DNA of 64,000 nucleotides from assembly GCA_003246265.1 (NCBI GenBank), contig QKAU01000005.1:1-64000 (forward strand), in the 5' to 3' direction. Shown here piece by piece: positions 34,725 through 54,101 of this stretch (positions are counted from its first letter, which is position 1; the number at the start of each line of letters is the position of its first letter). The position numbers and the translations under genes were made by a program. A model generated the notes under the pieces. That model made no database searches and was not told the origin of the DNA. It saw nothing but the letters and a program-made list of their open reading frames with translations. Source of the stretch: Kiritimatiellales bacterium. GTDB lineage: Bacteria > Verrucomicrobiota > Kiritimatiellia > Kiritimatiellales > Pontiellaceae.

Positions 34725-35681
34725 ATGAACTACGCATTGCAGGTCCTCTTCATTCTCGCGCTCATGGCGATCGGGTACGTGGCCCGGCGCCGCGGCCTCG
34801 TCAGCGACGCCGGCACCGGCGAAATGGTCCGGGTCATGATCGCCATCCTCTACCCCTGCCTCATTTTCACGTCGGTCACCCGGCTCGACGCCCGGGCGCT
34901 CGCCGCCAACTGGACCCTCCCTGCCCTGGCGATGGCGATCGCCGGCACGGGCCTCGCGCTCGGGCTGCTGGCGCTCCGCTTCATGAAGGGGGTCGACCGC
35001 CAGCGGGCCAGCGCCTTCCTCTTCCAGAGCACCATCAACAACTACCTCTTCCTGCCCCTGCCGCTGGTGATGCTGGTGTGGGGAACCGAGGGGGTCGCCC
35101 TGCTGGTCTTCGCCTCGATGGGGTTCGAGCTGGTGGTCTGGACGCTGGGCGTCTTCCTCTTCAACCGCTCCGGCAACCTGGCCGAAGGCATCCGTCTGAT
35201 GTTCGGACCGCCGCTCGTCACCCTGCTCTTCTCGATCGGCTGGGTCTGCCTGCGCGACGTCGCCCATCTCCACCTGCCGGCCTCCGGACCGGCGGCCGAC
35301 CTTGCCCGGAGGGTGCTAGAGCTGTTCTACTTCGGCACCGAAACGGTCGGCAGGGCCACGGTCGCCATTTCGATGATTGTATCAGGCAGCCGGATCGCCG
35401 CGCTCAACGTGCGTACCGCGATCGACTGGCACGTCTGGCTGCTGGCCGGGCTGCGGCTGGTCGCCATTCCCGTCCTCTTCATCCTCGTCCTGCGGCGGAT
35501 CCCGATGCCGGAGATGGCCTACGGCATCCTCTGCACCGTGGCCGTCATGCCGGCAGCCGTCACCAGCCTGGTCTTCAGCGAACGGTTCGGCGGAGACTCC
35601 GACTTCATTGCCACCACCCTGCTGGCCACCCACGTGGTCGCCGTGGCGACCATCCCGCTGCTGCTTGCCTGGGCGCTATAG
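34725..35681 (+). CDS. AEC family transporter
   Basis: 318 residues with ten hydrophobic segments in two halves, starting MNYALQVLFILALMAIGYVA. LFQSTINNYLFLPLPLVMLVWG and MPAAVTSLVFSERFGGDSDF are typical of the auxin-efflux-carrier (bile/arsenite/riboflavin-fold) family. Members export or take up small organic anions; the substrate cannot be told. Single gene, divergent from rpsA. Confidence 0.85.
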   Translation: MNYALQVLFILALMAIGYVARRRGLVSDAGTGEMVRVMIAILYPCLIFTSVTRLDARALAANWTLPALAMAIAGTGLALGLLALRFMKGVDRQRASAFLFQSTINNYLFLPLPLVMLVWGTEGVALLVFASMGFELVVWTLGVFLFNRSGNLAEGIRLMFGPPLVTLLFSIGWVCLRDVAHLHLPASGPAADLARRVLELFYFGTETVGRATVAISMIVSGSRIAALNVRTAIDWHVWLLAGLRLVAIPVLFILVLRRIPMPEMAYGILCTVAVMPAAVTSLVFSERFGGDSDFIATTLLATHVVAVATIPLLLAWAL

Positions 35682-35782
35682 TCCATCCGCGCCACCGGCG
35701 CAGTTGGAGAAAAGGGTTCCATCTGCTCCGGAACGCATGGGCGCCAGGCCGCAGACACCGAGAAGAAGGGCCCGCCTCGGCC

Positions 35783-36697
35783 CTAGAAATGATGTACGAG
35801 GCGCACGTTGTAGCGTTGGCCCTCGGGGCGGTATTCGGCACCGGATTCGAGGTAGGCGTTCAGGAAGAGGTGCGTGTCCTTGGAAAAGCTGACCAGCGCA
35901 CCGGGGCCGATGGCGAAGACCTGCTCCTTGCCACCCACCGTGTTTCCATCCACCTCCGAGTCGGTAATCTGTTTCAGGGCATATCCGTTGATGCCCAGGC
36001 GCAGCATCTTTGGAACCACCTCGTAGCTCGCGGCCAGATTGGCATGGAAGGCCTGCCCGGCCTGGGTGTCGCCGTTGGCGAACGGATGGTTCGGATCGTT
36101 GTTCTTCGCGTTCCAGAGATAGTGAATGCGCGTCGAGACCGTCAGCTTCGGCATGATGAAAAACGTGCCCGCCCAGTAGGGGTTGAAGGAGACGAAGTTG
36201 CTTCCGGGATTCAGGGCCTTGTTCGAAGAATATTCGCCGGTGGGCAGGATGACGGACAGCTCGATGCGGTGCAGGAGGATCGGCCCCTTGTCGCCCATGA
36301 CGGGATCCCATTGCAGGAATGGCCCCACAAGCAGGTCGCCGAAGCCGCCTCCATTGTCGGGGATCTGGGGCACGTTGCTATCCATCGCCACCACGGGAAG
36401 GATGAAATTCAGCCCCCACTTCCCGCCGGCCAGCAGGGCCTGGTCGGACTGGTAGATCAGTTGGTTCAGGCTCGCCCAGACGTTGATTTCGGGGTTGGCC
36501 AGAGGGAACGGGAGATCGGGCAAGGTGTCGGCCGTGTAGTACTGCACGTATTCCTGGAAATAGACGCCCGGTCCGGAGGGAGGGGCCCCATCCATGAAGC
36601 TGGTCGCGCCAAGGTTGACAGAGGGCTGGTCGTAGGCCGAGGCAACAGAGGCGGAAAGAACGAATATGATGAAACATCCGATCGCAGTGCTCTTCAT
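35783..36697 (-). CDS. SphA/MetA-pathway type outer-membrane protein
   Basis: 304 residues with a clear signal peptide (MKSTAIGCFIIFVLSASVASA). The rest is a beta-barrel pattern ending in Phe. AYDQPSVNLGATSFMDGAPP at the mature start and FNPYWAGTFFIMPKLTVSTR with YLWNAKNNDPNHP are typical of the SphA/phenol-degradation outer-membrane family, thought to pass hydrophobic or aromatic compounds. It is downstream of the cytochrome genes on the same strand but 158 bp away, so cotranscription is uncertain. Confidence 0.77.
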   Translation of the reverse strand: MKSTAIGCFIIFVLSASVASAYDQPSVNLGATSFMDGAPPSGPGVYFQEYVQYYTADTLPDLPFPLANPEINVWASLNQLIYQSDQALLAGGKWGLNFILPVVAMDSNVPQIPDNGGGFGDLLVGPFLQWDPVMGDKGPILLHRIELSVILPTGEYSSNKALNPGSNFVSFNPYWAGTFFIMPKLTVSTRIHYLWNAKNNDPNHPFANGDTQAGQAFHANLAASYEVVPKMLRLGINGYALKQITDSEVDGNTVGGKEQVFAIGPGALVSFSKDTHLFLNAYLESGAEYRPEGQRYNVRLVHHF

Positions 36698-36855
36698 GGT
36701 ATCTCCCGGGTTATGGCGCTACTTGCACGCGAGACGATCCCAAACAAGGCCTTCGCTTGTCAAGTCCCCTGGCAACGCCACCGATGCCCCCCAGAACCGG
36801 GCCAGGCCGGCATGATTGGGGGGGGCTTTCTCCCCGCCCCGTTTCCGGCCTGTGG

Positions 36856-38262
36856 CTATTTGCGTTTCAGCAATGCGGCCAGCGGATCCTCGTCGTATCC
36901 CAGCCCCTTCCATGGCATGCGCCCGGCCACGCCGTGGCATTCCAGGCAGTCGAGCGCATTCGCCGCGGGTTCAACGCCGTGGAAAATGCCCATGTAGCGG
37001 ATGGTATCGTTCCACACGTATTTCGGATCGGAGACCTGGTACATCTCTTTGGCGGCATTCCTAACCGCCTTGTCGATGTCCCCGTCGGCGAAGAATTCTT
37101 CGACGACGATCGGAATGATCCAGTCCTTTTCAGCAAGCACAGGCAAACGACCCCTGTGGACCTTGAAAGCGTGTATCTTTGACGCCGGATCGAGCCTGTT
37201 GCCTAGCGGAACCATCATCTCCACCTGTCCATCCTGGTTCCGCTGCGCGGGACTGCCCGGCAACTGGGCCCGCGTTATCCCGTTGAACCATGCGTAGGTG
37301 GGCACCTGGTTGGATGCCAGAACAATGGTGGCCTCGTACTTTTCCAGTTCGTCACTGTAATGTGGCTTCGACCAATCCCGGAACATGTCGGTTGGATCGA
37401 CCTTGGCAAACCGTGGTACATGGCAGACGGTGCAATCGACTTTCTTTGCATGCGAGTTCAGGATCGGTTCGCCATGCGGGTTTGGGCCATGGCAGTCTGC
37501 CGTGGCGCAGCTCAAATGCACTCCCGGCATGTCGTTTGCCGCCAGGTCCACTCCGCGGCCCCGCACCCGGTGGTCCTCCCCGGCATGGCAGTCGACGCAT
37601 TGCATCCCCGCCCCATCCGCGGCCATGTGCACATCATGATCGCGGTCGCATTCCGAGAGCACGTACTCAATATCGCCGCGCTTCCAGTTCGGTCCGCCGC
37701 CCGACGCGGAATGGCACCGCAGGCACATGGCGTTTTTCGGCAACGAAATTCGCTTTGCGACGGAATCGAGCCCCTCCTGGTTTTTCCAGAGGATGGGTTT
37801 CCGTGCCAGCTGGCCGTTCTCATCCTCGAACAGGCTCCGCCTGTAGCCGGAAGCATGGCAGATCAGGCAGTCGATGTTCTCCAGCTGTTCATCGGTCATC
37901 GTCTCTTCGGGCAGCAGTCCGAAACCGGCGTGGCACTTGGAGCATCCTTCCGACAGCACCTTGCCCGAGGGGCTGGTAGAAACGCCTATCCAGTTGGCCC
38001 GGGGCGATGTGCAGAAGTCGTTGATCGTATTCATCTTCCCCAGCTTCTTCCCGTCGGCGTTGACGATGCTGGGCGATTCACCCCGCCACTGGTAATGCTG
38101 CGAGTGGAAGAAGGTTTTCGCTTCCTCCTCATGACATTCCAGGCAGGTTTTCGTGCCTTCGTAATGTTCGAAGTACTCCTGGTGGGCATACTCTACAGCC
38201 TGGGTCGGTATCGCACAGAGCATCAGGCAGCCTAAAGCGGTGGAAATGTGGTTGGTCCTCAT
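36856..38262 (-). CDS. Multihaem (octahaem-type) c cytochrome
   Basis: 468 residues with a signal peptide (about 1-22). Haem-binding motifs in order: CLECH, CSKCH, CLICH, CLRCH, CVDCH, CATADCH (unusual CX4CH), CTVCH and CLECH; eight in all. Size and motif number resemble the octahaem tetrathionate-reductase family of periplasmic cytochromes, which reduce tetrathionate, nitrite or hydroxylamine in vitro. Whether the catalytic Lys ligand exists cannot be judged by eye. It lies in one strand-unit with a DUF3373-type barrel and a monohaem cytochrome, suggesting extracytoplasmic electron transfer. Confidence 0.85.
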   Translation of the reverse strand: MRTNHISTALGCLMLCAIPTQAVEYAHQEYFEHYEGTKTCLECHEEEAKTFFHSQHYQWRGESPSIVNADGKKLGKMNTINDFCTSPRANWIGVSTSPSGKVLSEGCSKCHAGFGLLPEETMTDEQLENIDCLICHASGYRRSLFEDENGQLARKPILWKNQEGLDSVAKRISLPKNAMCLRCHSASGGGPNWKRGDIEYVLSECDRDHDVHMAADGAGMQCVDCHAGEDHRVRGRGVDLAANDMPGVHLSCATADCHGPNPHGEPILNSHAKKVDCTVCHVPRFAKVDPTDMFRDWSKPHYSDELEKYEATIVLASNQVPTYAWFNGITRAQLPGSPAQRNQDGQVEMMVPLGNRLDPASKIHAFKVHRGRLPVLAEKDWIIPIVVEEFFADGDIDKAVRNAAKEMYQVSDPKYVWNDTIRYMGIFHGVEPAANALDCLECHGVAGRMPWKGLGYDEDPLAALLKRK

Positions 38263-38283
38263 TGGATTGGTCCTCGTTCAAAC

Positions 38284-38313
38284 CGAAAGAGGCAGGTTCG
38301 CCTGCCTCTTTCG
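38284..38313. terminator. Strong hairpin between the barrel and octahaem genes
   Basis: A 13-bp perfect stem (CGAAAGAGGCAGG and its complement) with a 4-nt loop, TTCG on the plus strand. It lies downstream of the barrel gene stop (38326) and upstream of the cytochrome start (38262). Only three T follow on the minus strand, so it may be a partial terminator, attenuator or mRNA-processing stabiliser setting the ratio of the two products. Confidence 0.6.
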
Positions 38314-38325
38314 CGCGCAGATGTT

Positions 38326-39948
38326 CTAGAAGCGGGCCGACAGACTCAAGGTAAGCATGGACGCCTCGTCGTAGGTCTGGGCCCCCAGCACCGGCGTGCT
38401 GTCGAGATCCTTGGGCGCACCCATGTGCCAACCCGTGCCGGAAAACTCGAAGTCGTAGAAGATATAGCCCAGTTTTGCCACAAAGTTGTTGTGGATGCGG
38501 TGGGTCACGTAGAGTTCGATCACATCCCCGCGGGTGCTGGTCTTCGGCGCAATGATATCATCCTCGGCCGCGGCGAAATTGAACCAGTACTCGGAACCAT
38601 GGTTGTATTCCAACCCTATCTTCGTCTTCTCTTCGTTGAATTTAAACCGCGTTCCGACGTAGATCATGTAGGCGTCCTGCGACTCAGGCACTTCGAACGG
38701 ATCGCAGAACAATCCGCCGAAGGGCGTGGTTACGTTGTTGGGATCGGAGTGCATGTAGTTGGCGCTTACGAACCAGTCGAAAAGGCCTTCATCGCGCAAG
38801 AGGACAATGCTGGCAAGATCGATGTTGCCCAGATCGGCCGACGGCGTGTAGCGCATGATCAGCGGCGCACCGATTTCCGCCCCGGTCAGAGGATCGTTCT
38901 GCATGACAACCGTCCCGTTGAATCCGTCCGTCACGTTGAATGCACGGGCCACCGTGGTCTGGATGAAGGTCTTCTCGGTATTGTACACGTCCCAGTTGAT
39001 GCCAAGGAAGGATGCATCGTTCAGGTCGTTGTGCGGGGAGTCCAGCGGCTGGCCATTGCCGAAGCCCGACTCATAGCCGACGCCGTAGCAGAGGCGCATG
39101 GTCGACACATCCGTAATTTTGTAGCCCGCAGTGATGCCATCGAACTGGTAGTTGATCAGCGATCCCATCGGCGTGCCGCCACGCAGTTCGTCATCCCGCA
39201 AGTTGAGCGGAATGCCGCCCGTCGAGGGACGCCGGCCAATCGAAAGATAAGTGGGCGATCCCGCGATGTCTTTCCAGGTGAAGTAGGCGCGTTCAACGCG
39301 GAGGATGTCGGAATTGGGTACCCCAACCGTGGTGCCGTCCACACCGATCGATGTGGGCTGGCCGTTGAAAACCTGCACGGCGGTGGAGTCGCCCCATACC
39401 TTGTACATACCCAGACGACCGTCAAAGGTCACGTTTTCCGCCACGTCGGCACCCAGGTTCAGCCGGAGCCGGCTCGTGTACATGATATCGTTGTCCGCAT
39501 CCCCACCGGGCTTGTAGGCAGCGCCATATGCCGCAGCCAGCGCGGCATCGATGGCATCCTTCTGGGGATCTCCCGGAGGAAGCCCGTTGTAAAAAGCCAT
39601 AAACGCGTTGAAATCCTGCTTGAGCTGATCGAAGGTCAGGTCGGGCGGTATGCTGCCGCCATAAAGCAGGTTGACGATGCTGTTCTGCAACTCCATCCCA
39701 TCGTAATACGCAGGGACGTGCGCATCGATGCTGTGCGCCTCGAAGCGGAAGTCGCCGGAGAAGGAAACCTTGTCCAAGGCGCTTGAGCGCTCCACCTTCA
39801 TCAGCCGGTCTTCCAGCTCGTCGATGTTTTCCTGCATTCCGCTGATGACCTCGTTGACGTCCTCGTAACTCTCCGCCGCCTGCACCGAAGGCGCCAGCGC
39901 CACAAGCAACCCCACCAGTCCGATGTTCCCCTTGATCTTCCCGAACAT
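38326..39948 (-). CDS. DUF3373-like outer-membrane porin
   Basis: 540 residues: signal peptide (to VQAAES), a short coiled-coil (EVISGMQENIDELEDRLMKV), then a long barrel domain beginning VSFSGDFRFEAHSIDAH and ending LSLSARF with a C-terminal Phe. The coil plus barrel architecture and the neighbouring c cytochromes match DUF3373-type proteins, which in metal-reducing bacteria often go with multihaem cytochromes. It is 49 bp after the monohaem cytochrome gene. Barrel assignment is solid from pattern; family name is from memory of its motifs. Confidence 0.75.
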   Translation of the reverse strand: MFGKIKGNIGLVGLLVALAPSVQAAESYEDVNEVISGMQENIDELEDRLMKVERSSALDKVSFSGDFRFEAHSIDAHVPAYYDGMELQNSIVNLLYGGSIPPDLTFDQLKQDFNAFMAFYNGLPPGDPQKDAIDAALAAAYGAAYKPGGDADNDIMYTSRLRLNLGADVAENVTFDGRLGMYKVWGDSTAVQVFNGQPTSIGVDGTTVGVPNSDILRVERAYFTWKDIAGSPTYLSIGRRPSTGGIPLNLRDDELRGGTPMGSLINYQFDGITAGYKITDVSTMRLCYGVGYESGFGNGQPLDSPHNDLNDASFLGINWDVYNTEKTFIQTTVARAFNVTDGFNGTVVMQNDPLTGAEIGAPLIMRYTPSADLGNIDLASIVLLRDEGLFDWFVSANYMHSDPNNVTTPFGGLFCDPFEVPESQDAYMIYVGTRFKFNEEKTKIGLEYNHGSEYWFNFAAAEDDIIAPKTSTRGDVIELYVTHRIHNNFVAKLGYIFYDFEFSGTGWHMGAPKDLDSTPVLGAQTYDEASMLTLSLSARF

Positions 39949-39997
39949 GTTGTCCCCCTTGCCTCTTGGTTTTAACCGCTATGCCACGTGCTCCCGC

Positions 39998-40369
39998 CTA
40001 CCCGCAGGTCATCGGATGTTCCGAGTCCGCTGCATGCTTGATGGCGAAATCCTTGATCGCCTGCAGGATTTCCGGCGTGATCGCCTCCGTTACGCCCTGG
40101 CCTTCGCTTTCCGAACCGGCCGGCATCTTGAGCCCTTCGTGCGCCTTCAGGTACTTTTTGTCGAAGAAGCGCTCCCACTGGTCGCTGATGAGGGTCATGG
40201 GCGTGTACTCGCCCGACGCGGATCCCTTGTCGTGGCAGATTTTGCAGTTGGCCTTGAACATCTCCTTCCCATCGATCTTGGCCTTCTTTGCCGCCATGGC
40301 ATCCAGCGCCATGACGGAAACGAGCGCCCCGACCGCGCAGGCTAACGACAGTTCCTTCGTTCCCATCAT
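39998..40369 (-). CDS. Small monohaem c-type cytochrome
   Basis: 123 residues with a signal peptide (about 1-26, ending AMAA) and one haem motif, FKANCKICHDKG. Probable axial Met lies in GLKMPAG or TPMTL. It is a class I-like shuttle cytochrome of the periplasm. The start at 40369 has GGAG seven bases upstream. First gene of the cytochrome-porin unit. Confidence 0.87.
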   Translation of the reverse strand: MMGTKELSLACAVGALVSVMALDAMAAKKAKIDGKEMFKANCKICHDKGSASGEYTPMTLISDQWERFFDKKYLKAHEGLKMPAGSESEGQGVTEAITPEILQAIKDFAIKHAADSEHPMTCG

Positions 40370-40740
40370 ATTTACTCTCCTTTATATCTTTATTATTTCA
40401 TGTTTGGATATGTTTACAGTCGTCCCGTGTTTTGACAAGCAACAATGCCCCCGCGGCGTTTCTTTAGACCTTGTACCATTTGGCAGAAGCGAAAAGGTCA
40501 TATCGCAAGGTGCGGGGGCGCCGATGGTTCAGGCAAGGGGTTGCCCTTCCCGGCACAGCTGCAATTCCGAACGACTACCCCGCCATGGGGTTCGTCATGG
40601 GCAACCCGAAGTTTGCCCCCTCATGGCTTTTTGTTTAGGAATCGCTGTGCCCGGCGCAATCCTCGTTCTTTTGCGTCCAGATCGACCTCGGCATATGCGC
40701 TTTCGGCTGCGCCCGTCGGCTGTTGAACCTTGCCGCGGGG
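40370..40740. other. 371-bp intergenic region
   Basis: No gene is supported here. The left 70 bp are AT-rich and hold the cytochrome promoter candidate listed separately. The rest is of average composition, with only short GC-rich inverted patches (GCCCCCGCGGCG near 40445 and GCGGGGGCGCCG near 40511) that could pair as a long-range structure. Confidence 0.4.
40411..40438 (-). promoter_or_regulatory. Putative promoter of the cytochrome-porin unit
   Basis: Minus strand TTGTCA (40438-40433), 16-nt spacer, TAAACA (40416-40411), inside an AT-rich stretch 42 bp upstream of the cytochrome ATG, with a good AAGGAG ribosome site between. Confidence 0.35.
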
Positions 40741-41256
40741 CTATTCCGGAATGAAGAGCTTCTGGCCGACGTAGATGGTATCGGACTTGAGGTTGTTGGC
40801 CTTCTTGATGGCGTCGACCGTGACGCCACATTTGGCAGCGATGGCGGAAAGCGTATAGCCGGCTTCGACGACGACTTCCCGTCCGGCCCCTCGGCTGGAC
40901 GTCGGCGCGGGCCGTGCCGCCAGCGCCTTGCCAATCAGCGCCTCGACCTTGCTGATCAGTTCCTGCATCTCGCGGGCCTGCTTGGCTTCAAGCGACCGCA
41001 TGGAGCTGTTGAGCTGGGCGATCTGGCTGCCGTAGGACTGCATTTCTCCCCGGGCCTGCTGGAGTTCCTGCATGAGCCGGGCGTTATCGCTCTGCACCTC
41101 CTGGAGCTGCGCCTGAAGCTTCACGATGCGCTCCTCCATGTAGCGGGTGGCGAGCTGCTGCTGCGAGGCGGACTGCCGCTGCTGCGGCATCTGGAGGGTT
41201 TCGCAGCCGGCCAGCAGGGCCGGTAGCGCCAGGATGGCAAGGTTTTTCAAATGCAT
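40741..41256 (-). CDS. LysM-domain lipoprotein
   Basis: 171 residues. Signal with lipobox LLAGC (Cys19), a Gln-rich coiled-coil (about 45-115), a short Pro/Ser/Gly linker, and a C-terminal LysM domain (VVVEAGYTLSAIAAKCGVT ... IYVGQKLFIPE) that binds peptidoglycan. Anchored in a membrane leaflet and spanning to the cell wall. The ATG at 41256 was chosen over one 27 bp upstream because it begins the signal and has GGAG before it. Overlaps the region of the SppA gene end (41271) with only 14 bp between. Confidence 0.88.
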   Translation of the reverse strand: MHLKNLAILALPALLAGCETLQMPQQRQSASQQQLATRYMEERIVKLQAQLQEVQSDNARLMQELQQARGEMQSYGSQIAQLNSSMRSLEAKQAREMQELISKVEALIGKALAARPAPTSSRGAGREVVVEAGYTLSAIAAKCGVTVDAIKKANNLKSDTIYVGQKLFIPE

Positions 41257-45105: not shown

Positions 45106-46740
45106 ATGAACGTCCCATCCCTGTTCCCCCTGCTGTTCACGGTTTTCTGCCTTGCCGTGCAGGGCGCTGGCCGCCCCAACCTGCTGCTCATCATGATGGA
45201 CGACCTCGGATGCGGACAGTGCCAGTTCAACAGTGGCGAATTAACGGTCGACCAGTTCGATCCCTATTTCAAGGCGTTGGTCGCACAGCGCCAGGACTAC
45301 TCGCCGGAGCAGGCCCTTGAGTTTTCCCGGCGGGCGATGCCTACCCTCTCCCGGCTGGCCGACGACGGCGTAGTCTTCAAGCGCGCCTACGCGGCGAGCA
45401 GCCTTTGCGCGCCATCGCGCCTGGCGGTTGCAACCGGCCGGATTCCACCCGACAACGGCGTCTATACCAACATGGATGTGGAGAACGGCGGCCTCCGGCC
45501 CGGCACCCATCTTGCAGCCATCCTGCACGATGCGGGCTACGCCACGGCCCATATCGGAAAATGGCACATCGGGCGGCGCGACGAGCAGGTGATCCGCGAT
45601 GTGCTCGCGCGCCATGGCATCCAGGAGACCCTCGGCTTCGGCGCGCTGCGCACCCAATACCCGGACCTCTACAACGAGGCCTGGGAGGCCGGATACTACG
45701 GCTCGGTGGTCAGGGAGCAGAACCCGCTCAGCAACGGATTCGACTACTACTACGGCTACAACAACTGGGCGAGCCAGTTCTACGACTCCACCCTGGTGTG
45801 GGAAGGGTTCGACCATGCCGGTCGGCAGAGTGGCTACAACACCGAGATCTTCACCGACAAGGCGCTGGCCTTCATCGGGAAGCAGGTGGAAGGCGGCAAG
45901 CCGTTCTACGTGCAGCTCCACTACCACGCCGTGCACGACTACCTCGAACCCAACGCTCCGGACCGCTACTGGAACGGATTCCGCTCCGAATCCTACGAAC
46001 TCTCCAACTTCTACGCGCACATCAATGCCGTCGACCAGAACATCGGGCGCATCCTGGACTACCTGGAGGCCAAGGGGGTGCTGGAAGACACCATGGTCGC
46101 CTTCACCTCCGACAACGGAGCCATGGCCGGGGGCCCCAACGTGCTGCCGGGCAATGCGCCCTTCTCCGGGCACAAGGGCATGCTCAACCAGGGTGGGGTC
46201 CGCGTGCCGCTATTCTTCCACTGGCCCAAGGGAATCAAGGCGCACGGGCGGCTCGATGCGATGGTCTCCAGCATGGACATCCTCCCAACGTTCATCGAGG
46301 CCGCGGGTCTGCAACAGCCCGAAGGCCTCGACGCCAGAAGCCTGATGGGCCTGCTTGCCGGCGATCCGACTCCGGTCCACGACGAGCTGGTCTGGGCCGG
46401 AATCCATGCGCGGGCGTGGGGGTTCCTGCACACCACCTCGCCGCTGACGAAGAACCAGGAGCGTGAAAAGGCGCCGGGCGGCTGGGCCGTCGCGAAGGGC
46501 GACTTCGTGCTGCGCTTCACCGGCACGATCGCGCCGGGGATCTACAACGAGCTTCCCAACGGCGCACCCGCCCGGCTTCAGTTGTTCAACGTCGCCCAGG
46601 ATCCCGCCGAAACCACGGACCTGATGGACCAGAACCCGGAACTGGCCGAAGGCATGCGGCAGGACTACCTGAAACGGTCGCGGTCCTTCACCCCGCCCGT
46701 CGCATGGGACGAGGAGCGGTGGCGGGAGCTCGTCCCCTGA
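45106..46740 (+). CDS. Formylglycine-type sulfatase (1)
   Basis: 544 residues, signal peptide (about 1-20), then the alkaline-phosphatase-like sulfatase fold. LLLIMMDDLG holds metal-binding Asp residues; LCAPSRLAVATGR (Cys101) is the C-x-P-S-R motif converted to formylglycine; HIGKWHIG and FTSDNGAM follow. It removes sulfate ester groups from a glycan in the periplasm or outside. A region of about 35 residues between DDLG and the Cys motif is longer than usual. The gene ends exactly where the converging sulfatase 2 ends. Substrate position unknown. Confidence 0.93.
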   Translation: MNVPSLFPLLFTVFCLAVQGAGRPNLLLIMMDDLGCGQCQFNSGELTVDQFDPYFKALVAQRQDYSPEQALEFSRRAMPTLSRLADDGVVFKRAYAASSLCAPSRLAVATGRIPPDNGVYTNMDVENGGLRPGTHLAAILHDAGYATAHIGKWHIGRRDEQVIRDVLARHGIQETLGFGALRTQYPDLYNEAWEAGYYGSVVREQNPLSNGFDYYYGYNNWASQFYDSTLVWEGFDHAGRQSGYNTEIFTDKALAFIGKQVEGGKPFYVQLHYHAVHDYLEPNAPDRYWNGFRSESYELSNFYAHINAVDQNIGRILDYLEAKGVLEDTMVAFTSDNGAMAGGPNVLPGNAPFSGHKGMLNQGGVRVPLFFHWPKGIKAHGRLDAMVSSMDILPTFIEAAGLQQPEGLDARSLMGLLAGDPTPVHDELVWAGIHARAWGFLHTTSPLTKNQEREKAPGGWAVAKGDFVLRFTGTIAPGIYNELPNGAPARLQLFNVAQDPAETTDLMDQNPELAEGMRQDYLKRSRSFTPPVAWDEERWRELVP

Positions 46741-48342
46741 TCAATCGTTCCAGTGTTCGTCAATGATCTTCTGGATGTGGGGATAGTCCTTGTCGGTCTC
46801 GCCCAGCCCCTCGCGCAGATCCTTCAGCTGGACCTTCAACTTCTTGACCACTTCGGCGTATTCGGGATTGGCGTAGATATTGTTCATCTCATGGGGATCG
46901 GTCTTGAGGTCGTACAACTCCCACCCCGGCGGCGTACGCCACTCGGAACGGGTTCCCCACCCCGTGCGGCCATCGGGATAGACGTCGCACCCGTAGTAGA
47001 AGATCAGCTTGTAGCGCTGGGTGCGGATGGCAAAGTGAGCGGGATTGGCATGGGCGTGCGCCATGTGCATCCAGTAGCGGTAGTAGGTGGCGGTGCGCCA
47101 ATCGTCCGGCACGACCCCCGTCTCGGCCATCGATTTGACCGGGCGCCCCTGCATGTACGCCGGCGTCTTCACGCCGGCGTAGGCCAGCATGGTCGGCGCA
47201 AAGTCGGTGTTGTTGACGAGCGCATCGCACACCGTGCCGGGCTTGATCGATTGCGGGTAGTGCATGATCAGGGGCATGCGCATCCCCTCTTCGTAACCCC
47301 AGCGCTTGTCGATGTAGTCATGCTCGCCCAGGTAGAAGCCCTGGTCGCCGCTGTAGAGGATCACCGTGTTCTCCCAGAGCCCCTCCTTTTTCAGGTAGTC
47401 GAACAACCGGCCAAGGTTGTCGTCGACCCCCTTGACGCAGCGGAGATAGCGCTTGAGGTAGGCCTGGTAGGCCTGGTGCGTGTATTCCCGGTCCGGCAGC
47501 GACGGATCGATCCCCATGTGCTGCCCCATGTTGCGGGTCGGGTCGCGCTTGGAGACGGAGGATCCGATGTCGTGGATCAGCGCATCCTTTTCGCCACGCG
47601 TGGCCACGGAGCCGTGGTTGCCCGTCTCGTAGAGGCTTTCCGGCTCGGGAATTTCGACATCCGCGAGGTAGTCGTCGTAGCGGGGCGCGTTTTCGAACAT
47701 GTCGTGGGGCGCCTTGTAGTGGTGCATCAGGAAGAACGGTCTGTTCTTGTCGCGTCCCTCCGCCAGCCACTTGAGCGTCAGGTCGGTGATGACGTCGGTG
47801 CTGTGCCCCTTGTACTGCTTCGTCTTGATGCCCGTAGCGCCGTGCCGGCCGAATTTCATGCCCGTTTCTATGAACTCGGGATCGAAGTAGGTCCCCTGCT
47901 GTCCGGCCGCGACCAGCACATTGTAGTAGTCGAACGCGGCCGGTTCGGCCTTGAGGTGCCACTTGCCGATGATGGCGGTCTGGTAGCCGGCCTTCTTCAT
48001 TTCGATCGCCAGGTACTGCCGGTCCGGCGGCAGCTCGCCGTCCAGGTCGAGCACGCCGTTCTTCTGCGGATACTGCCCGGTCATGATCGTTGCGCGGCTC
48101 GGCGTGCAGATGGCGTTGACGCAGAAGACGCGGTCGAACCGCGCCCCGTCGTTGGCCAGGGCATCCAGGTTCGGTGTCGGATTGAGCCCGGACAGCCGCG
48201 ACCCGTAGCAGCCGAACGCCTGGGTGGTATGGTCGTCCGAGAGGATGAAGAGGATGTTGGGCCGTTTGTCCGCCGGCTTCCCCACGACGACGCCGGAGGC
48301 CAACGCCACCAGCACCCCGACCAAACACGCTGCCTTGCCCAT
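46741..48342 (-). CDS. Formylglycine-type sulfatase (2)
   Basis: 533 residues, signal peptide (about 1-21). [33 protein letters not shown] (Cys79), IIGKWHLKAEP and LYSGDQGFYLGEHDYIDKRW are the sulfatase blocks. The C-terminal part (YRYWMHMAHAHANPAHFAIR, GWELYDLKTDPHEMNNIY) is of the kind seen in many marine PUL sulfatases. It is the only enzyme of this locus on the minus strand and diverges from the symporter gene, sharing an AT-rich region. Confidence 0.94.
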   Translation of the reverse strand: MGKAACLVGVLVALASGVVVGKPADKRPNILFILSDDHTTQAFGCYGSRLSGLNPTPNLDALANDGARFDRVFCVNAICTPSRATIMTGQYPQKNGVLDLDGELPPDRQYLAIEMKKAGYQTAIIGKWHLKAEPAAFDYYNVLVAAGQQGTYFDPEFIETGMKFGRHGATGIKTKQYKGHSTDVITDLTLKWLAEGRDKNRPFFLMHHYKAPHDMFENAPRYDDYLADVEIPEPESLYETGNHGSVATRGEKDALIHDIGSSVSKRDPTRNMGQHMGIDPSLPDREYTHQAYQAYLKRYLRCVKGVDDNLGRLFDYLKKEGLWENTVILYSGDQGFYLGEHDYIDKRWGYEEGMRMPLIMHYPQSIKPGTVCDALVNNTDFAPTMLAYAGVKTPAYMQGRPVKSMAETGVVPDDWRTATYYRYWMHMAHAHANPAHFAIRTQRYKLIFYYGCDVYPDGRTGWGTRSEWRTPPGWELYDLKTDPHEMNNIYANPEYAEVVKKLKVQLKDLREGLGETDKDYPHIQKIIDEHWND

Positions 48343-48489
48343 GGTGCACCGCCTTTCCGATTCCCTTATCAGACTGCCAATTCGATGTGACCGTAAACAT
48401 TTATATTTGACTTTCCCGGCCTGAAACAAGACATATTATGGTTTTAGCGTCATAACCCGCCGAAGTGGCGATATAAAGGGGATTCTGAC
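48343..48489. promoter_or_regulatory. Divergent promoter region, sulfatase 2 / symporter
   Basis: 147 bp, AT-rich at 48385-48450. The minus strand offers TTGTTT, 18 nt, TATAAA for the sulfatase; the plus strand has TTGACT followed by AT-rich CATATTAT for the symporter, though the spacing there is long. A shared regulator site for both directions is likely but no clear palindrome is seen. Confidence 0.4.
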
Positions 48490-50541
48490 ATGACCGGATT
48501 GGACTGGGGAATCGTTGCGCTCTTCGTGGCCTTGCTCGTCGGCATATCCATCGTGACCAACAGGATGACGAAATCGGTGGCGGGCTTCCTCTCCTCCGAG
48601 CGCCTGGCGGGACGCTACCTGCTGACGGTTGCGCAAAGCATGGCCTTCCTGTCGGCCATCGGGACCATCGGCCAGTTCGAAAGCTTCTACCGCAACGGCA
48701 TCGGCGGACAGTGGTGGGGCATGCTGATGATGCCGGTGGGGATCATCGTCGCCCTCTCCGGCTGGGTCGTCTACCGCTACCGCCAGACCCGCGCGATGAC
48801 TATGGCCCAGTTTCTCGAACAACGCTACAGCCGCCGCTTCCGCGTTTTCGCCGGCATCACGGCCTTCTTCTCGGGAGTGCTGAACTGCGCCGTCTTCCCG
48901 ATGGTCACCGCCAACTTCATGATCTACTTCCTCGGCCTGCCGCCGCAGTACTACCACCTCGTCATGTTCATCATGGTGGCCTCGGCCGTCATCCTCGCCA
49001 TCTCCGGTGGCCAGAACACGATCATGGTCACCAGCTTCTTCCAGGGCATCGTCACCAGCGCCGCCTGCGTGGCCGGCGTCTGGTTCGTCGTCGTCCATTT
49101 CGGCTGGGACGGAATCATGGATACCCTGTTCAACTCGGAGAGCATCAAGGCGGGCGGCGCTGCCGGTCCGCAATGGTTCAGGGAGCTGGCGGCCCAGGCG
49201 ATGCCCGATCCCGGGAAGTATCCCGACCTGATCGAAGGCATGTACCGCCGCGAGGGCGTCTCCATGATGAATCCCTTCAAGCAGGGGGGCTTGCCCGACT
49301 TCGGCGTCCCCTACTTTGTCATGCTCACGATCCTGATGGTGGTCAAGACCGGCGTATGGCAGGGCGGCGCCGGCTTCATGACGGCCGCCAAGACCCCGCA
49401 TGAGGCGAAGATGGGCAACATCCTGAGCAGCTGGCGCTGGCTGATGATCACCGTCGGCACCGTCGGCTTCTCCATCGCCGCCTACGTGCTGGTCTGGAAT
49501 CCGGCCTACGCCGCGGTGCAGGCACAGATCCAGTCCACCGTCTCCTCCATCGGCGACGCCAATCTCCAGTCGCAGATGTTCGTACCGATCGTCATCCGCC
49601 ACATGTTCCCGCCGGGCCTGCTTGGCCTCTTCGCCATCTTCATGATCGGCGCGGCGGTCTCGACCGACGACTCGGCCTACCACTCATGGGGCTCGATCTT
49701 CCTGCAGGACGTCATCATGCCCTTCCGCAAGAAGCCCTTCACCACCGAAGAACACCTGAAGTACCTGCGCTGGTCGATCGTGCTGATCGGCGCAATCTCC
49801 TTCACCTTCAGCTCCCTCTGGACCATGAAGGAGTTCATCAACATGTGGTTCGAAATCACTGGCGCGATCTACGTCGGCGGCGCCTCCTGCGCGATCATCG
49901 GCGGCCTCTACTGGAAGCGAGGGACCACGTCGGCGGCGTGGACCGGCCTCATCTCCGGCAGCGTCATTTCGCTGGCCGGCATCTTCATCAAGCAGCAGTG
50001 GCCCGACCTGACCTTCCCGGGGAGCGACGTCACGATCAACGGCATGCACTGGGCCATCGTGGCCGTGGCGGTTTCGTTCACCCTCTACGTCGTCGTCTCG
50101 CTCGCCACCTGCCGCAAGCCGCACAACATGGACAAGCTGCTGCACCGCGGGGCGTACGCCGTCGAGGAGGCGCAGAAGGAGAAGGAGGCCAAGCTGGCGC
50201 AGGCCGGGCAGATGCCGTGGATCTACCGCATCCTTGGCATCACCCGCGAATTCTCGGCCTTCGACAAGGCCATCTACATCACCATGATCCTCTGGACCGC
50301 CGGATGGTGCCTGACCTTCGTCCTCGGCACCGCCTACAACCTGGCCAACCCCATCAGCTCCGAGCGGTGGCGCTTCTGGTGGACCGTGATGCTCGGCATC
50401 CAGGGTTTCGTCTCGGTCGCCAGCGCCATCTGGTTCACCATCGGCGGGGCCGGCGACACCATCTTCCTCTTCCGCAAGCTGGCCACCATCGAGGTCGACG
50501 AGTCCGACGACGGCACGGTGCGGCACGACGTGGACGTTTGA
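48490..50541 (+). CDS. Sodium:solute symporter (SSS family)
   Basis: 683 residues with about 14 membrane segments. LDWGIVALFVALLVGISIVT starts the protein; VAGFLSSERLAGRYLLTVAQ and GLLGLFAIFMIGAAVSTDDS are typical of SSS (SLC5-like) carriers. It is longer than usual because of a cytoplasmic stretch after the transporter core (DKLLHRGAYAVEEAQKEKEA) and extra C-terminal segments. Located at the head of the plus-strand run of sulfatases and glycosidases, it probably imports a sugar released by them. Confidence 0.92.
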   Translation: MTGLDWGIVALFVALLVGISIVTNRMTKSVAGFLSSERLAGRYLLTVAQSMAFLSAIGTIGQFESFYRNGIGGQWWGMLMMPVGIIVALSGWVVYRYRQTRAMTMAQFLEQRYSRRFRVFAGITAFFSGVLNCAVFPMVTANFMIYFLGLPPQYYHLVMFIMVASAVILAISGGQNTIMVTSFFQGIVTSAACVAGVWFVVVHFGWDGIMDTLFNSESIKAGGAAGPQWFRELAAQAMPDPGKYPDLIEGMYRREGVSMMNPFKQGGLPDFGVPYFVMLTILMVVKTGVWQGGAGFMTAAKTPHEAKMGNILSSWRWLMITVGTVGFSIAAYVLVWNPAYAAVQAQIQSTVSSIGDANLQSQMFVPIVIRHMFPPGLLGLFAIFMIGAAVSTDDSAYHSWGSIFLQDVIMPFRKKPFTTEEHLKYLRWSIVLIGAISFTFSSLWTMKEFINMWFEITGAIYVGGASCAIIGGLYWKRGTTSAAWTGLISGSVISLAGIFIKQQWPDLTFPGSDVTINGMHWAIVAVAVSFTLYVVVSLATCRKPHNMDKLLHRGAYAVEEAQKEKEAKLAQAGQMPWIYRILGITREFSAFDKAIYITMILWTAGWCLTFVLGTAYNLANPISSERWRFWWTVMLGIQGFVSVASAIWFTIGGAGDTIFLFRKLATIEVDESDDGTVRHDVDV

Positions 50542-50620
50542 GGCCGCCGACTGTCCTAATGGCCAGTACCTCCCGGCGACGGCGCACTCTACCATGGTTG
50601 CTTTTGAAAGGAGCCGATCC

Positions 50621-52276
50621 ATGAACAACCTGCCCGCCCGCCTGCTGGCGCTCGCGCTGCTCGCCGCCGGCGCCCGCGCCGCCGAATCCACCCGCCCCAA
50701 CATCATCTTCATCCTGACCGACGACCAGCGCTGGGACTCCGTCGGCTTCATGGGCGAAACGATTGGCAAGACGCCCAACCTCGACAAGCTGGCGAGCGAC
50801 GGCGTCGTCTTCGACAATGCCTTCGTCACCTCCGCCATCTGCACGCCGAGCCGCGCCTGCTACATGCTCGGCCAGTTCGAGCGCCGCCACGGGGTCAACT
50901 TCAACTCCGGCACCTCCATGGCGCCCGAGGCGTGGGCCAAATCCTATCCGGTCGTGCTGCGCGAAAACGGATACTTCACCGGCTACATCGGGAAGAACCA
51001 CCTGCCGGTCGGCGACAAGGGCTACTTCACCGGCCTCATGGAAAAGAGCTTCGACTACTGGTATGCCGGCCACCACCACATCGGCTTCTATCCAAAGGAG
51101 CTCCATGAAATCTTCGACAACTCCTCGCAGGACACGCAGCCGGAAGTCCTGGCCGAAAGCGCGCTCGCCTTCCTCGATCCCGCATCCAACGAAACCTTCC
51201 TGAAAGGGGCCGTCAACTTCCTCGAACACCGCCCCGACGGCAAACCCTTCTGCCTCTCGATCTGCATGAACCTGCCGCACGGCTTCAGCATCGAGCGCAT
51301 GAAGATGAAGCCAACCGACGACGCACTCTACCGTACCGCCTACCGCGAGTGGCAGGAGACCCTCCCCCTCCCCCCCTTCTACGTCGCCAGGAAAGACATC
51401 CGGCAGCCCAAGATCCCCGCCGACGTGCTCCTCGCCGACCTGCGGCAGAACGGCTACGACTGGGTCGACACCCCGGCCGACGACCGGGAATACAGGATCA
51501 AGGTCATGCAGGCCGTGACGGGCATCGACCGGATGGTCGGCCACTTGCGCGAGAAGCTGCTCGAAAAGGGGTTGGCCGACAACACCGTCATCATCTTTAG
51601 TTCGGACCATGGACTCTTCAACGGCGAGTTCGGCCTGGGTGGCAAGGCCCTCTGCTATGAAACCACCATGAAGGTGCCCTTCGTCATCTACGATCCGCGC
51701 GAAAAGGGGGGGCGGCGCCTCAAGCAGCTGGTGCAGTCGATCGACGTCGCCCCCACCATCCTCTCCCTGGCCGGCGTTCCGGCTCCGGAGACCATGCAAG
51801 GCGCCGACATCACCCCCTTGCTCCGCGGCCAGGATGGGCCGTGGCGCGACGCCGCCTTCGGCGAAAACCTCTGGTCGAACATCTTCGGAAACCCGCGCTG
51901 CGAAACGGTCCGCACCGCCGAATACCGCTACATCCGCTACTTCCGGAACGACAACCGCAAGAAGCGCGAACGAACCCCCAAGGACCAGATGTACATCGTA
52001 ACCGATGAGATGGCCGAAGACTACCGCATCCACCTCACCTCGACCATCAAGGGCGAGAAGGTGGTCTACGAGGAGCTCTTCCACACCGCCACCGATCCCT
52101 ACGAGGCCACCAACCTCGTCCACGACGTCCAATACAAGAGGGTCCTCGACGACCTGCGCGCAAAATGCTCGCGGATGGTCGCGGCCGCCAAGGGCGATGT
52201 GAAAACCCCACCAGCCACCATCCCCATCGACTACAAGTGGGAACGCACCAACTACCGGAAAACCAAGCAGGACTGA
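50621..52276 (+). CDS. Formylglycine-type sulfatase (3)
   Basis: 551 residues, signal peptide (about 1-20). [38 protein letters not shown] (Cys74), [13 protein letters not shown] and [18 protein letters not shown] are the conserved blocks. The start has GGAG nine bases upstream. It is 79 bp after the symporter gene and 25 bp before sulfatase 4, so an operon is likely. Confidence 0.94.
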
Positions 52277-52301
52277 CCAACACATCCAACGGAGCCGCCG
52301 C

Positions 52302-54101
52302 GTGACAAGATCCACCACGATAACCATTTCGTTCTTCATCGCCTGGAGTGGTTGCCAGGCCGCATCGAAGCAACCGAACATCCTATGGATCCTGACCGAC
52401 GACCACCGCGCCGACTCGCTCCAATGCTTCAACAAGGCGGCCTCCGGGTCGCCCTACAGCCGCCTCGGCTACGTCTCCTCGCCGCGCGCCGACAGGCTGG
52501 CCGACGAGGGCGTGCTCTTTACCCGCGCCTACTGCAACTCGCCCGCCTGCGCCCCGTCGCGCGGGTCGATGCATACCGGGCGCTACCCCTTCCGCAACGG
52601 CATCTACGGCTTCAAGCCTGTCCACGAACGGGCGGATTTCTGCAAGCCGACCTTCCCCGTCCTGCTGCGCGATGCGGGCTACGACACCGCCGTGGTCGGC
52701 AAGTCCGGCTACTACATCTTCGGCGACCGGACCTGGTGGACGGCCAACCTCTATAATACCGAAATCGACATGAAGAACGACCTGGGTGCCGTCGGCCTCA
52801 CCGACTTCTTCAAGACCAAGGATCCCGACACCGACAACTTCTACCGGCCCGACGGCACGGTCCTGACCCTTTCCGAAGGCATGCCCGCGAAGGACCGCGA
52901 AGCCATCGAGGCGGAAACCGACCTGCTCCTCAGCTATTGCCGGCAGGGGCAGGAGATCATCGGCGGCGTCAGCCTGCAGCCCGCCGAAGGAACGCTGGAC
53001 GGGCAGATCGAGGCGGCCTTCGAACAGTGGCTGGCGCAGGCGGGCCGGACCTACGCCATCCCCTCCAAGGACAAGACCGCCAGGAACGGGCAGAAGACGA
53101 TCCACGGCCCCGATCCGGACAAGCCCGTCTTCGTCCACATCGGCTTCTCGGTGCCCCACACCCCCGTCCTGCCGCCCAAGGCATTCCGCGACGCCTTCAT
53201 CGCCAAGGAAAAGGAGTTGCCCTACCGGATCCCCGCATTCTCCGAAGAGGAGCTTGAAAAGCTGCCCAGGCAGCTGGTCGACCTGCACACGAAGATGAAC
53301 TTTTCCAGCATGAAGCAGGAGGACAAGCTCCAGGCGATCCGCGACTACTACGCCTTCTGCGCCTTCGGCGACGAAATGGTCGGCCGCGCCGTCGACGCCT
53401 TCAAGGCCTACAGCAAAAAATCGGGCCGCGACTGGCTGGTCGTCTACGCCATCGGCGACCACGGATGGCACCTCGGCGAGCAGGGCATCGAGGCCAAGTT
53501 CGCCCCCTACGACCGCTCCAACCACGGGGCCGTCATCGTCGCCTCCTCCAACAAGCAGTGGGTGCCCGCCGGCAAGGTGTTCGACGACTTCGTCGAATAC
53601 GTCGACTTCGCCCCTACCTTCTGCCAGGCCGCCGGAATCCGATCCCCGGACTACTTCGACGGCTACAGCCTGGTCGATACGCTGCGCGGCAAGGCACCGG
53701 CGCGCGCCTACGTGCTTGCGGAGATGGACCATGTCTACGGTCCGCGCGCCTACCTGCGCACCCGGCAGTTCGCCTTTTCGATGCGAACCCGCAACACCGG
53801 CAAGCCGGGCAAGGAGGTGAAATGGGCGCTCGACGCCCCGCTCGCGGAGGTCGAGCCCGCGCTCTACGACCTGCGCACCGATCCCGACGAGCGGTGGAAC
53901 GTCGCCCTCGATCCAGAATACGCTAAACTCTGCGAATGGTTCCGCACCAAGCTTGGCAGCATCGTCCTCGGCGACCGCCGCATCGAGTGCGACTGGACGA
54001 AGGACAACGTCTACTCCCTGAGCGATTTCGCCGGCGGCGCCGACGACAAGAAGGCCGACATCCCGCCAGGGCTCATCCCCCCGAAAGAGGTTCGTCCATG
54101 A
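52302..54101 (+). CDS. Formylglycine-type sulfatase (4), GTG start
   Basis: 599 residues, start GTG at 52302. The N-terminus ([17 protein letters not shown]) is either a signal peptide or a weak lipobox with Cys18. [32 protein letters not shown] (Cys83), [11 protein letters not shown] and [18 protein letters not shown] are the sulfatase blocks. A long insertion between about residues 150 and 270 is unlike sulfatases 2, 3 and 5. Its stop overlaps the start of the beta-helix gene by ATGA. Confidence 0.93.

Follow-up and report, generated by a model that had tools for sequence, protein, structure and literature searches.

Gene content of the locus

We analysed a 64,000-nucleotide stretch (the window) from a Kiritimatiellales bacterium (assembly GCA_003246265.1, contig QKAU01000005.1, positions 1 to 64,000). 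It carries on its minus strand adjacent genes for a monohaem class-I c-type cytochrome, an outer-membrane porin of the DUF3373 family and an octahaem c-type cytochrome related to octahaem tetrathionate reductase (OTR), and beside them a gene for a further outer-membrane barrel (Table 1). An earlier sequence-only reading had listed these four products, including the coiled coil of the DUF3373 barrel, and all lie at or next to the positions it gave on that strand. The barrel that it called SphA-type is taken here to be the PF13557 barrel.

The first three genes are separated by 49 and 63 bases. Judged from these short gaps, the three genes fit an operon. The coding signal was good for all four genes in a home-made codon-usage gene call. 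A scan of the window found 9 matches of CXXCH-coding DNA against 3.4 expected, seven of them in the octahaem gene and one in the monohaem gene. It is likely that the locus encodes an OTR-type terminal reductase together with a porin and a cytochrome partner of its own, and that it reached this genome by horizontal insertion.

Table 1. Coordinates in the window of the genes and sites discussed
Feature	Position	Strand	Remark
Monohaem class-I c-type cytochrome, 123 aa	39998..40369	-	Signal-like N-terminus, one CKICH, C-terminal motif AADSEHPMTCG
Codon of invariant Cys122, monohaem cytochrome	40004..40006	-	C-terminal Cys in 55/55 aligned rows; invariant in 39-row alignment
DUF3373 outer-membrane porin, 540 aa	38326..39948	-	PF11853; predicted helix/coiled coil 28-59, helical insert 84-144, 16 barrel strands
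Octahaem c-type cytochrome, predicted OTR fold, 468 aa	36856..38262	-	TIGR04315; without C-terminal membrane helix
CSKCH, haem 2 attachment site (catalytic haem of OTR)	37930..37944	-	Invariant in 80/80 OTR loci
Lys194 codon	37681..37683	-	Aligned with Lys153 of 1sp3 (catalytic-haem distal ligand)
CATADCH, CX4CH haem motif, residues 252-258	37489..37509	-	CX2CH in the characterised enzyme
PF13557 (Phenol_MetA_deg) outer-membrane barrel	35783..36697	-	Profile match E 3e-56
Inserted segment including all four genes	35682..40740		Between AEC transporter gene and LysM gene
AEC transporter gene	34725-35681	+	Flank of insert
LysM gene	40741-41256	-	Flank of insert

A conserved three-gene cassette

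Scanning the GTDB species genomes gave 509 confirmed OTR loci. We used the best 80, which are not a random sample, and their genes were called with the home-made codon-usage caller and from stop-to-stop frames. A DUF3373 gene lies directly upstream of the OTR gene on the same strand in 62 of the 80 loci, and the monohaem gene lies upstream of DUF3373 in 54, with order and strand fixed. Eight loci have DUF3373 but no monohaem match; in seven of these the contig ends within DUF3373, and in the eighth (L023) the DUF3373 match itself is short. Among the 18 loci without DUF3373, four (L086, L088, L090 and L091) offer no more than about 0.4-2.2 kb of sequence ahead of the OTR frame. Presence of DUF3373 follows identity to the window OTR: it was found in 58 of 59 loci at 44% identity or more, and in 4 of 21 below that value.

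Together, the genes for the monohaem cytochrome, DUF3373 and OTR make up a conserved cassette. Because the three core genes hold their order and strand in dozens of unrelated genomes, the cluster is not due to chance. Its holders include Acidobacteriota, Krumholzibacteriota, Gammaproteobacteria, Desulfuromonadales and metagenome-assembled genomes (MAGs) labelled Kiritimatiellae (L016), Gemmatimonas and Fibrobacter. The OTRs of the 'Fibrobacter' MAG (L026) and the 'Gemmatimonas' MAG (L032) are near-identical, so that the two may be one lineage, with one of the labels wrong, or a bin may be mixed. No description of the cassette was found in open-licence PMC papers.

In the OTR tree, from which L073, L089 and L091 were dropped as partial, the DUF3373 label needs at least three changes over 78 rows. 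The window OTR falls in a 54-row clade with SH-aLRT 99, from a quick tree method without bootstrap. The Mantel distance correlation (999 permutations) over 52 rows was r 0.86 between OTR and DUF3373 and r 0.72 between OTR and the monohaem cytochrome; in a 44-row core the values were 0.74 and 0.63. For this comparison L073, L089, L091, L057, L059, L060, L044, L024, L050, L023 and L034 were set aside as cut or short. Correlated distances of the three proteins are expected if they move together.

Other candidates for the cassette were rejected. The PF13557 barrel had no phmmer match in the 80 OTR loci. Nor did other neighbour families make up a pan-phylum set, since the largest clusters seemed to be lineage-specific or to consist of shadow frames. 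A plasmid origin was also dismissed: a relative occurs in five plasmid records, four of them from Paracoccus, all below 60% identity.

The octahaem cytochrome

The octahaem protein contains seven CXXCH motifs and one CX4CH motif, that is, eight haem motifs. It matches TIGR04315 over model positions 10-440 of 440 (E 1.7e-85, 287.7 bits). The same model is matched at E 1e-20 or better by all 45 rows of the alignment used for structure prediction (A3; 44 of the 77 fuller OTR rows and the window protein). The sole clear PDB relative is 1sp3 (phmmer E 4e-51), the OTR of Shewanella oneidensis (SO4144). The AlphaFold2 model built from the 45 sequences has a mean pLDDT of 90.3 and a pTM of 0.87. It gave one strong match, to 1sp3 (Foldseek E 2e-35; VIA Z 35.4, root-mean-square deviation 2.6, 397 aligned residues, 31% identity), whereas the matches to NrfA (1fs7, VIA Z 2.9) and to an HAO-like protein (6h5l, Z 3.2) were weak. 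As far as this model goes, the octahaem protein is a divergent relative of OTR with the OTR core fold.

Counted by chain in the alignment with 1sp3, Asn61, Cys64 and Lys153, which we take to be the active-site residue numbers of OTR, correspond to Asn81, Cys84 and Lys194. By this alignment, Lys194 is the counterpart of Lys153, which binds the catalytic haem as its distal ligand. All 80 loci preserve haem motifs 1-3, Asn81 and Cys84, and all 78 rows that reach the site have Lys194. Passages of PMC11024163 on OTR describe its second haem as catalytic and Lys-ligated. The sequence-only reading had proposed to look for a Lys-ligated catalytic haem and would have been refuted by haem motifs that do not fold as a packed octahaem core; the predicted OTR core with its aligned lysine agrees with it.

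The loop around this lysine reads GGGPNWKRGD in the window protein and GGGGDAVKHGD in 1sp3. Most rows of the main cassette clade have GGG[P/Q/A]N[FYW]KRGD, whereas most OTRs without the cassette have GGG[D/N/E].VKHGD. The spacing of the haem motif at the CX4CH position varies (CX2-4CH) only among cassette-bearing rows. The octahaem protein has no membrane helix after the last haem; the tails of two aligned plasmid relatives look like membrane helices.

The DUF3373 porin

The DUF3373 barrel matches PF11853 from position 2 to 409 of 409 (E 6e-105, 352 bits against a cut-off of 26.1). Its AlphaFold2 model, built from 44 sequences (alignment A2; 43 of the 55 longer DUF3373 rows and the window protein), has a mean pLDDT of 80.5 and a pTM of 0.78. 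In this model a long N-terminal helix (residues 28-59), compatible with a coiled coil, is followed by the first strand, the helical insert at residues 84-144 and 15 more long strands, giving 16. The nearest structures by Foldseek and VIA are PorB, OmpM1, Omp32, VhChiP and OprP/OprO (Z about 21-23), with Z about 22 for the first three. From the model, the DUF3373 barrel is most simply seen as a solute channel of the general-porin kind, not as an MtrB-type sheath. Anion selectivity would be a guess by analogy. Neither of two papers that name DUF3373 assigns it a function. In the part of PMC4827864 that holds a TCDB-based table, DUF3373 (TCDB 1.B.62) proteins are putative porins with 18 strands and without an assigned function; the full PF11853 model is shared with the window protein, whose model has 16 strands.

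The monohaem cytochrome

A profile of the monohaem cytochrome and its relatives (39 sequences) aligns to cytochrome c6 1ls9 (E 1.2e-5). Unlike class-I c6-type cytochromes, the family does not conserve the Met of c6, so that Met as the distal haem ligand was rejected, and it ends in an invariant Cys motif. This tail, A-x-D-S-x-x-P-x-T-C, is almost fixed in 55 aligned sequences, and Ala113, Asp115, Pro119, Thr121 and Cys122 occur in every one of them. In 54 of 54 rows a His lies near residue 77, located with a loosely set window of 14 residues; L034, whose frame is truncated ahead of the haem motif, was not among these rows.

The Cys of SoxA, TsdA or SoxY ligates haem or carries a sulfur intermediate. 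It is an improbable idea that the monohaem cytochrome is more than a plain carrier and that Cys122 would likewise be a haem ligand or a carrier of a sulfur intermediate, passing sulfur species or electrons to an OTR-type enzyme that has its own anion porin, so that the whole would be a self-contained transferable module. If this is true, the Cys-tail module would represent a molybdenum-free route of sulfur-oxyanion respiration across uncultured phyla.

Insertion in the host genome

The source genome is a 3.0 Mb draft, 96% complete, in 81 contigs. Among 387 sampled genomes of the phylum, the window OTR and a DUF3373 protein above cut-off were each found in one. A profile search found OTR-type proteins in 3 of 345 genomes of the class. 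One of the three, G590, shares its coordinates with L016 and is taken to be that Kiritimatiellae MAG, which puts the source genome in its class. Among the genus members searched the OTR gene occurs only in the source genome. By comparison, the neighbouring SppA is present in 22 of 28 genus genomes, with 60-73% identity in the other 21.

The flanks, yebC-tyrS-rpsA-AEC on one side and LysM-SppA-KpsF on the other, are syntenic in the genus and 52-88% identical. All 12 same-genus regions compared lack every one of the four genes of the site, the PF13557 barrel included. In six regions the AEC gene is directly beside the LysM gene, in one rpsA is beside LysM, two hold other genes and one is too short. 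Since the 12 regions are without these genes, the segment of about 5 kb that carries all four is an insertion at a variable site. The PF13557 barrel in it is probably a passenger or an extra channel. In the remaining two of the 12 regions (L112 and L113), the AEC-LysM gap holds an unrelated gene of 855-880 aa with two CXXCH motifs.

Electron-transfer background of the host

The sequence-only reading had looked to the genome for cytochrome c maturation and for CymA/NrfH-like quinol oxidases, and both are encoded. Maturation is represented by a System II pair of adjacent genes, for a CcsB-like protein of 586 aa (PF01578 over cut-off; TIGR03144 124 bits against 187.6) and a ResB of 472 aa (PF05140 over cut-off). 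NrfH scores above its cut-off (166.7 against 134.2), and next to it is encoded an NrfA-type protein, downstream of NrfH (L005:9883-11373; PF02335 E 2e-122, under the NCBI cut-offs). The five haem motifs of the NrfA-type protein are all CXXCH, and the CXXCK of many NrfA is absent. A CymA-type protein is found in 32 of 387 genomes of the phylum and, in the genus, also in G157 with much of the cluster described next.

A large multihaem cluster occupies positions 1-14400 of contig C10 (L006) and the end of contig C21 (L007), next to the System II maturation genes; the start of C10 overlaps the end of the contig that carries them. The cluster encodes a 12-haem lipoprotein-like protein, a 9-haem TSP3 protein, a C554-type tetrahaem protein, a NapC/CymA-type heptahaem protein and two multihaem-b561 fusions with 19 and 11 CXXCH motifs. 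Its 446-aa barrel-like protein had no Pfam or NCBIfam match. As a candidate for extracellular electron transfer, this cluster fits far better than the cluster in the window.

No PF00384 molybdopterin oxidoreductase was found in the source genome by a search whose control was positive in 11 of 14. Thus Ttr, Psr, Phs, Nap or Nar is not expected, subject to the missing 4% of the genome. The sequence-only reading had also described the cultured relatives as mostly fermentative. This fits the class, to judge from the relevant part of PMC10504345, one survey in which the Kiritimatiellae genomes it covers were classed as fermentative.

Proposed function and alternatives

We consider it reasonably probable that the three core genes were acquired horizontally and serve as a cassette for respiring a small, dissolved, oxidised compound. 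The DUF3373 porin would pass the substrate through the outer membrane, and the OTR-type octahaem cytochrome, presumably periplasmic, would reduce it at the Lys-ligated haem. Electrons may come from the monohaem cytochrome, from NrfH or CymA-like quinol oxidases, or from both sources. We infer the periplasmic location, the direction of electron flow, the substrate and the donor-acceptor pairs from the genes.

Tetrathionate or a similar sulfur oxyanion is the likeliest substrate; nitrite or hydroxylamine is possible. Passages of PMC11024163 give tetrathionate, nitrite and hydroxylamine as OTR substrates, and in PMC6449678, as excerpted, a purified OTR relative reduces both tetrathionate and nitrite. 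An excerpt of PMC8528874 on Svalbard sediment reports that otr of a Thermoanaerobaculia MAG was up 36-fold with tetrathionate. The otr primers given in that excerpt best fit L036, L027 and L025, cassette-type loci of that lineage, with 7, 8 and 8 mismatches of 36 and a common spacing of 193 bases. The best other locus has 9 mismatches and a different spacing, and the best of 60 shuffled primer pairs has 10. By this primer fit, whose margin is small, the tetrathionate-induced otr probably belongs to the cassette clade. G588, another member of the class to which the source genome belongs, encodes a protein of 1099 aa (L144:9834-13133) in which a canonical OTR (585 bits) is joined to a second multihaem part and to a membrane module of the b561 type. 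The NCBI match of the module is thiosulfate reductase cytochrome b, under cut-off. The fusion gene adjoins split Sulf_transp and rhodanese genes and a gene for an ArsR-type regulator. The tetrathionate-induced otr and these sulfur-related neighbours favour sulfur oxyanions.

Several points weigh against a respiratory cassette of this kind. No gene in the window itself indicates sulfur. The score of the octahaem protein is under the curated NCBI naming cut-off of 375 bits for TIGR04315, so we name it an OTR-type relative and not OTR. Asp150 of OTR is replaced by Pro191, and the loop round the lysine differs across most of the cassette clade; because of these changes the substrate may differ from that of OTR. 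The NrfA encoded elsewhere in the genome makes nitrite use by the cassette redundant, not excluded. As the genome is a draft, absences from it are provisional. Downstream of the cassette, seven loci have a gene for a GSU2203-type decahaem protein, and six of the seven have a GSU2204-type barrel gene as well.

The last point bears on a porin-cytochrome conduit, in which the octahaem protein would sit inside the DUF3373 barrel and carry electrons across the outer membrane as MtrA does in MtrB. The sequence-only reading had offered a terminal reductase or an electron outlet; its reductase half is supported, by the predicted OTR fold and the kept lysine, and its porin-cytochrome conduit is not. 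The barrel gene does adjoin the multihaem gene. Six Thermoanaerobaculia/Holophagae-type loci carry MtrAB-like genes of the GSU2203/GSU2204 type after the cassette; in the seventh locus the sequence stops behind the decahaem gene, and in L085 genes of this type are on the other strand. However, the DUF3373 barrel has 16 predicted strands with ordinary porins as its nearest folds, the octahaem protein is built as a compact enzyme core and keeps a catalytic lysine, and no surface cytochrome is encoded in the cassette. Where MtrAB-like genes co-occur with the cassette, those would be the conduit. A trans-outer-membrane conduit formed by the window genes is therefore unlikely, indeed very improbable in the specific form with the octahaem protein inside the barrel, and we rejected it on strand number and enzyme core. 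In the organisms whose cassette adjoins GSU2203/GSU2204-type genes, a link to outward electron flow may exist.

Three other alternatives concern the direction, the purpose and the provenance of the cassette. The cassette may run in the oxidising direction and take electrons from a reduced sulfur or nitrogen compound. TsdA and HAO are haem enzymes able to work in both directions, so the wider enzyme class can be bidirectional. The known OTR activities in the relevant passages of PMC11024163 and PMC6449678 are reductive, and otr is induced by an oxidised substrate in the excerpt of PMC8528874, which leaves this direction improbable. It is slightly less improbable, and still unlikely, that the cassette serves detoxification and not respiration, removing nitrite, hydroxylamine or another reactive oxidant. 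OTR reduces nitrite and hydroxylamine (passages of PMC11024163), a relative reduces nitrite (PMC6449678, as excerpted), and in the genus the gene is confined to the source genome; yet NrfHA is already encoded and a dedicated porin would be unexpected for this purpose. That the contig is a contaminant or a binning error has almost no weight. The cassette is missing from every other genus member searched, but it lies in the interior of the contig and not at its end, and we rejected contamination of the bin because of the synteny of the flanks.

Comparison with known systems

The preferred reading, a respiratory cassette with an OTR-type enzyme, can be set against several known systems. The octahaem protein shares with S. 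oneidensis OTR the fold near its full length, as modelled, the eight haem motifs, the lysine of haem 2 and the equivalents of Asn61 and Cys64. It differs from OTR in having Pro191 for Asp150, an altered Lys loop and one CX4CH motif, and in being accompanied within its cassette by a porin and a monohaem cytochrome of its own. MmcA of Methanosarcina (TIGR04314) is an OTR relative that the octahaem protein matches weakly (E 6.5e-15); MmcA is multihaem and acts as an electron conduit. According to passages of PMC11024163, MmcA is without haem 2 and its lysine, whereas both are present in the octahaem protein.

The likeness to MtrAB and the porin-cytochrome conduits, including GSU2203-GSU2204, lies in a barrel gene beside a multihaem gene, and true relatives of these systems stand beside the cassette in some organisms. 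The MtrB barrel has 26 strands. The cassette differs from these systems in its barrel family and strand number, and it has neither a decahaem wire nor a surface cytochrome. Among DUF3373 proteins, the one in the window is distinguished by its tie to an OTR-type enzyme.

The partner set of a porin and a Cys-tailed monohaem cytochrome gives an OTR-type subfamily a testable context and a sequence signature. It also gives DUF3373 a working hypothesis of function. In addition, a member of a class commonly regarded as fermentative would gain a terminal reductase through an insertion, at a position that its congeners leave empty or fill differently.

Neighbouring genes in the window and in related loci

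In six Thermoanaerobaculia/Holophagae-type loci with a GSU2203-type decahaem gene downstream of the cassette (L055:10796-12931, L058:10779-12848, L036:7988-10135, L025, L057 and L059), the barrel gene after the decahaem gene is interrupted by an in-frame TGA, always at the same conserved position (..FDG-TGA-AG..). In three of these loci the codon itself was read, and in the other three the same split was found by alignment. A novel selenoprotein MtrB beside some cassettes was considered and rejected, as the L055 barrel matches the known selenoprotein family NF041027.

Elsewhere in the window, positions 45106-54101 hold four sulfatase-like genes and a transporter-like gene, recognised by a look at their sequences. 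Such a set is typical of polysaccharide degraders.

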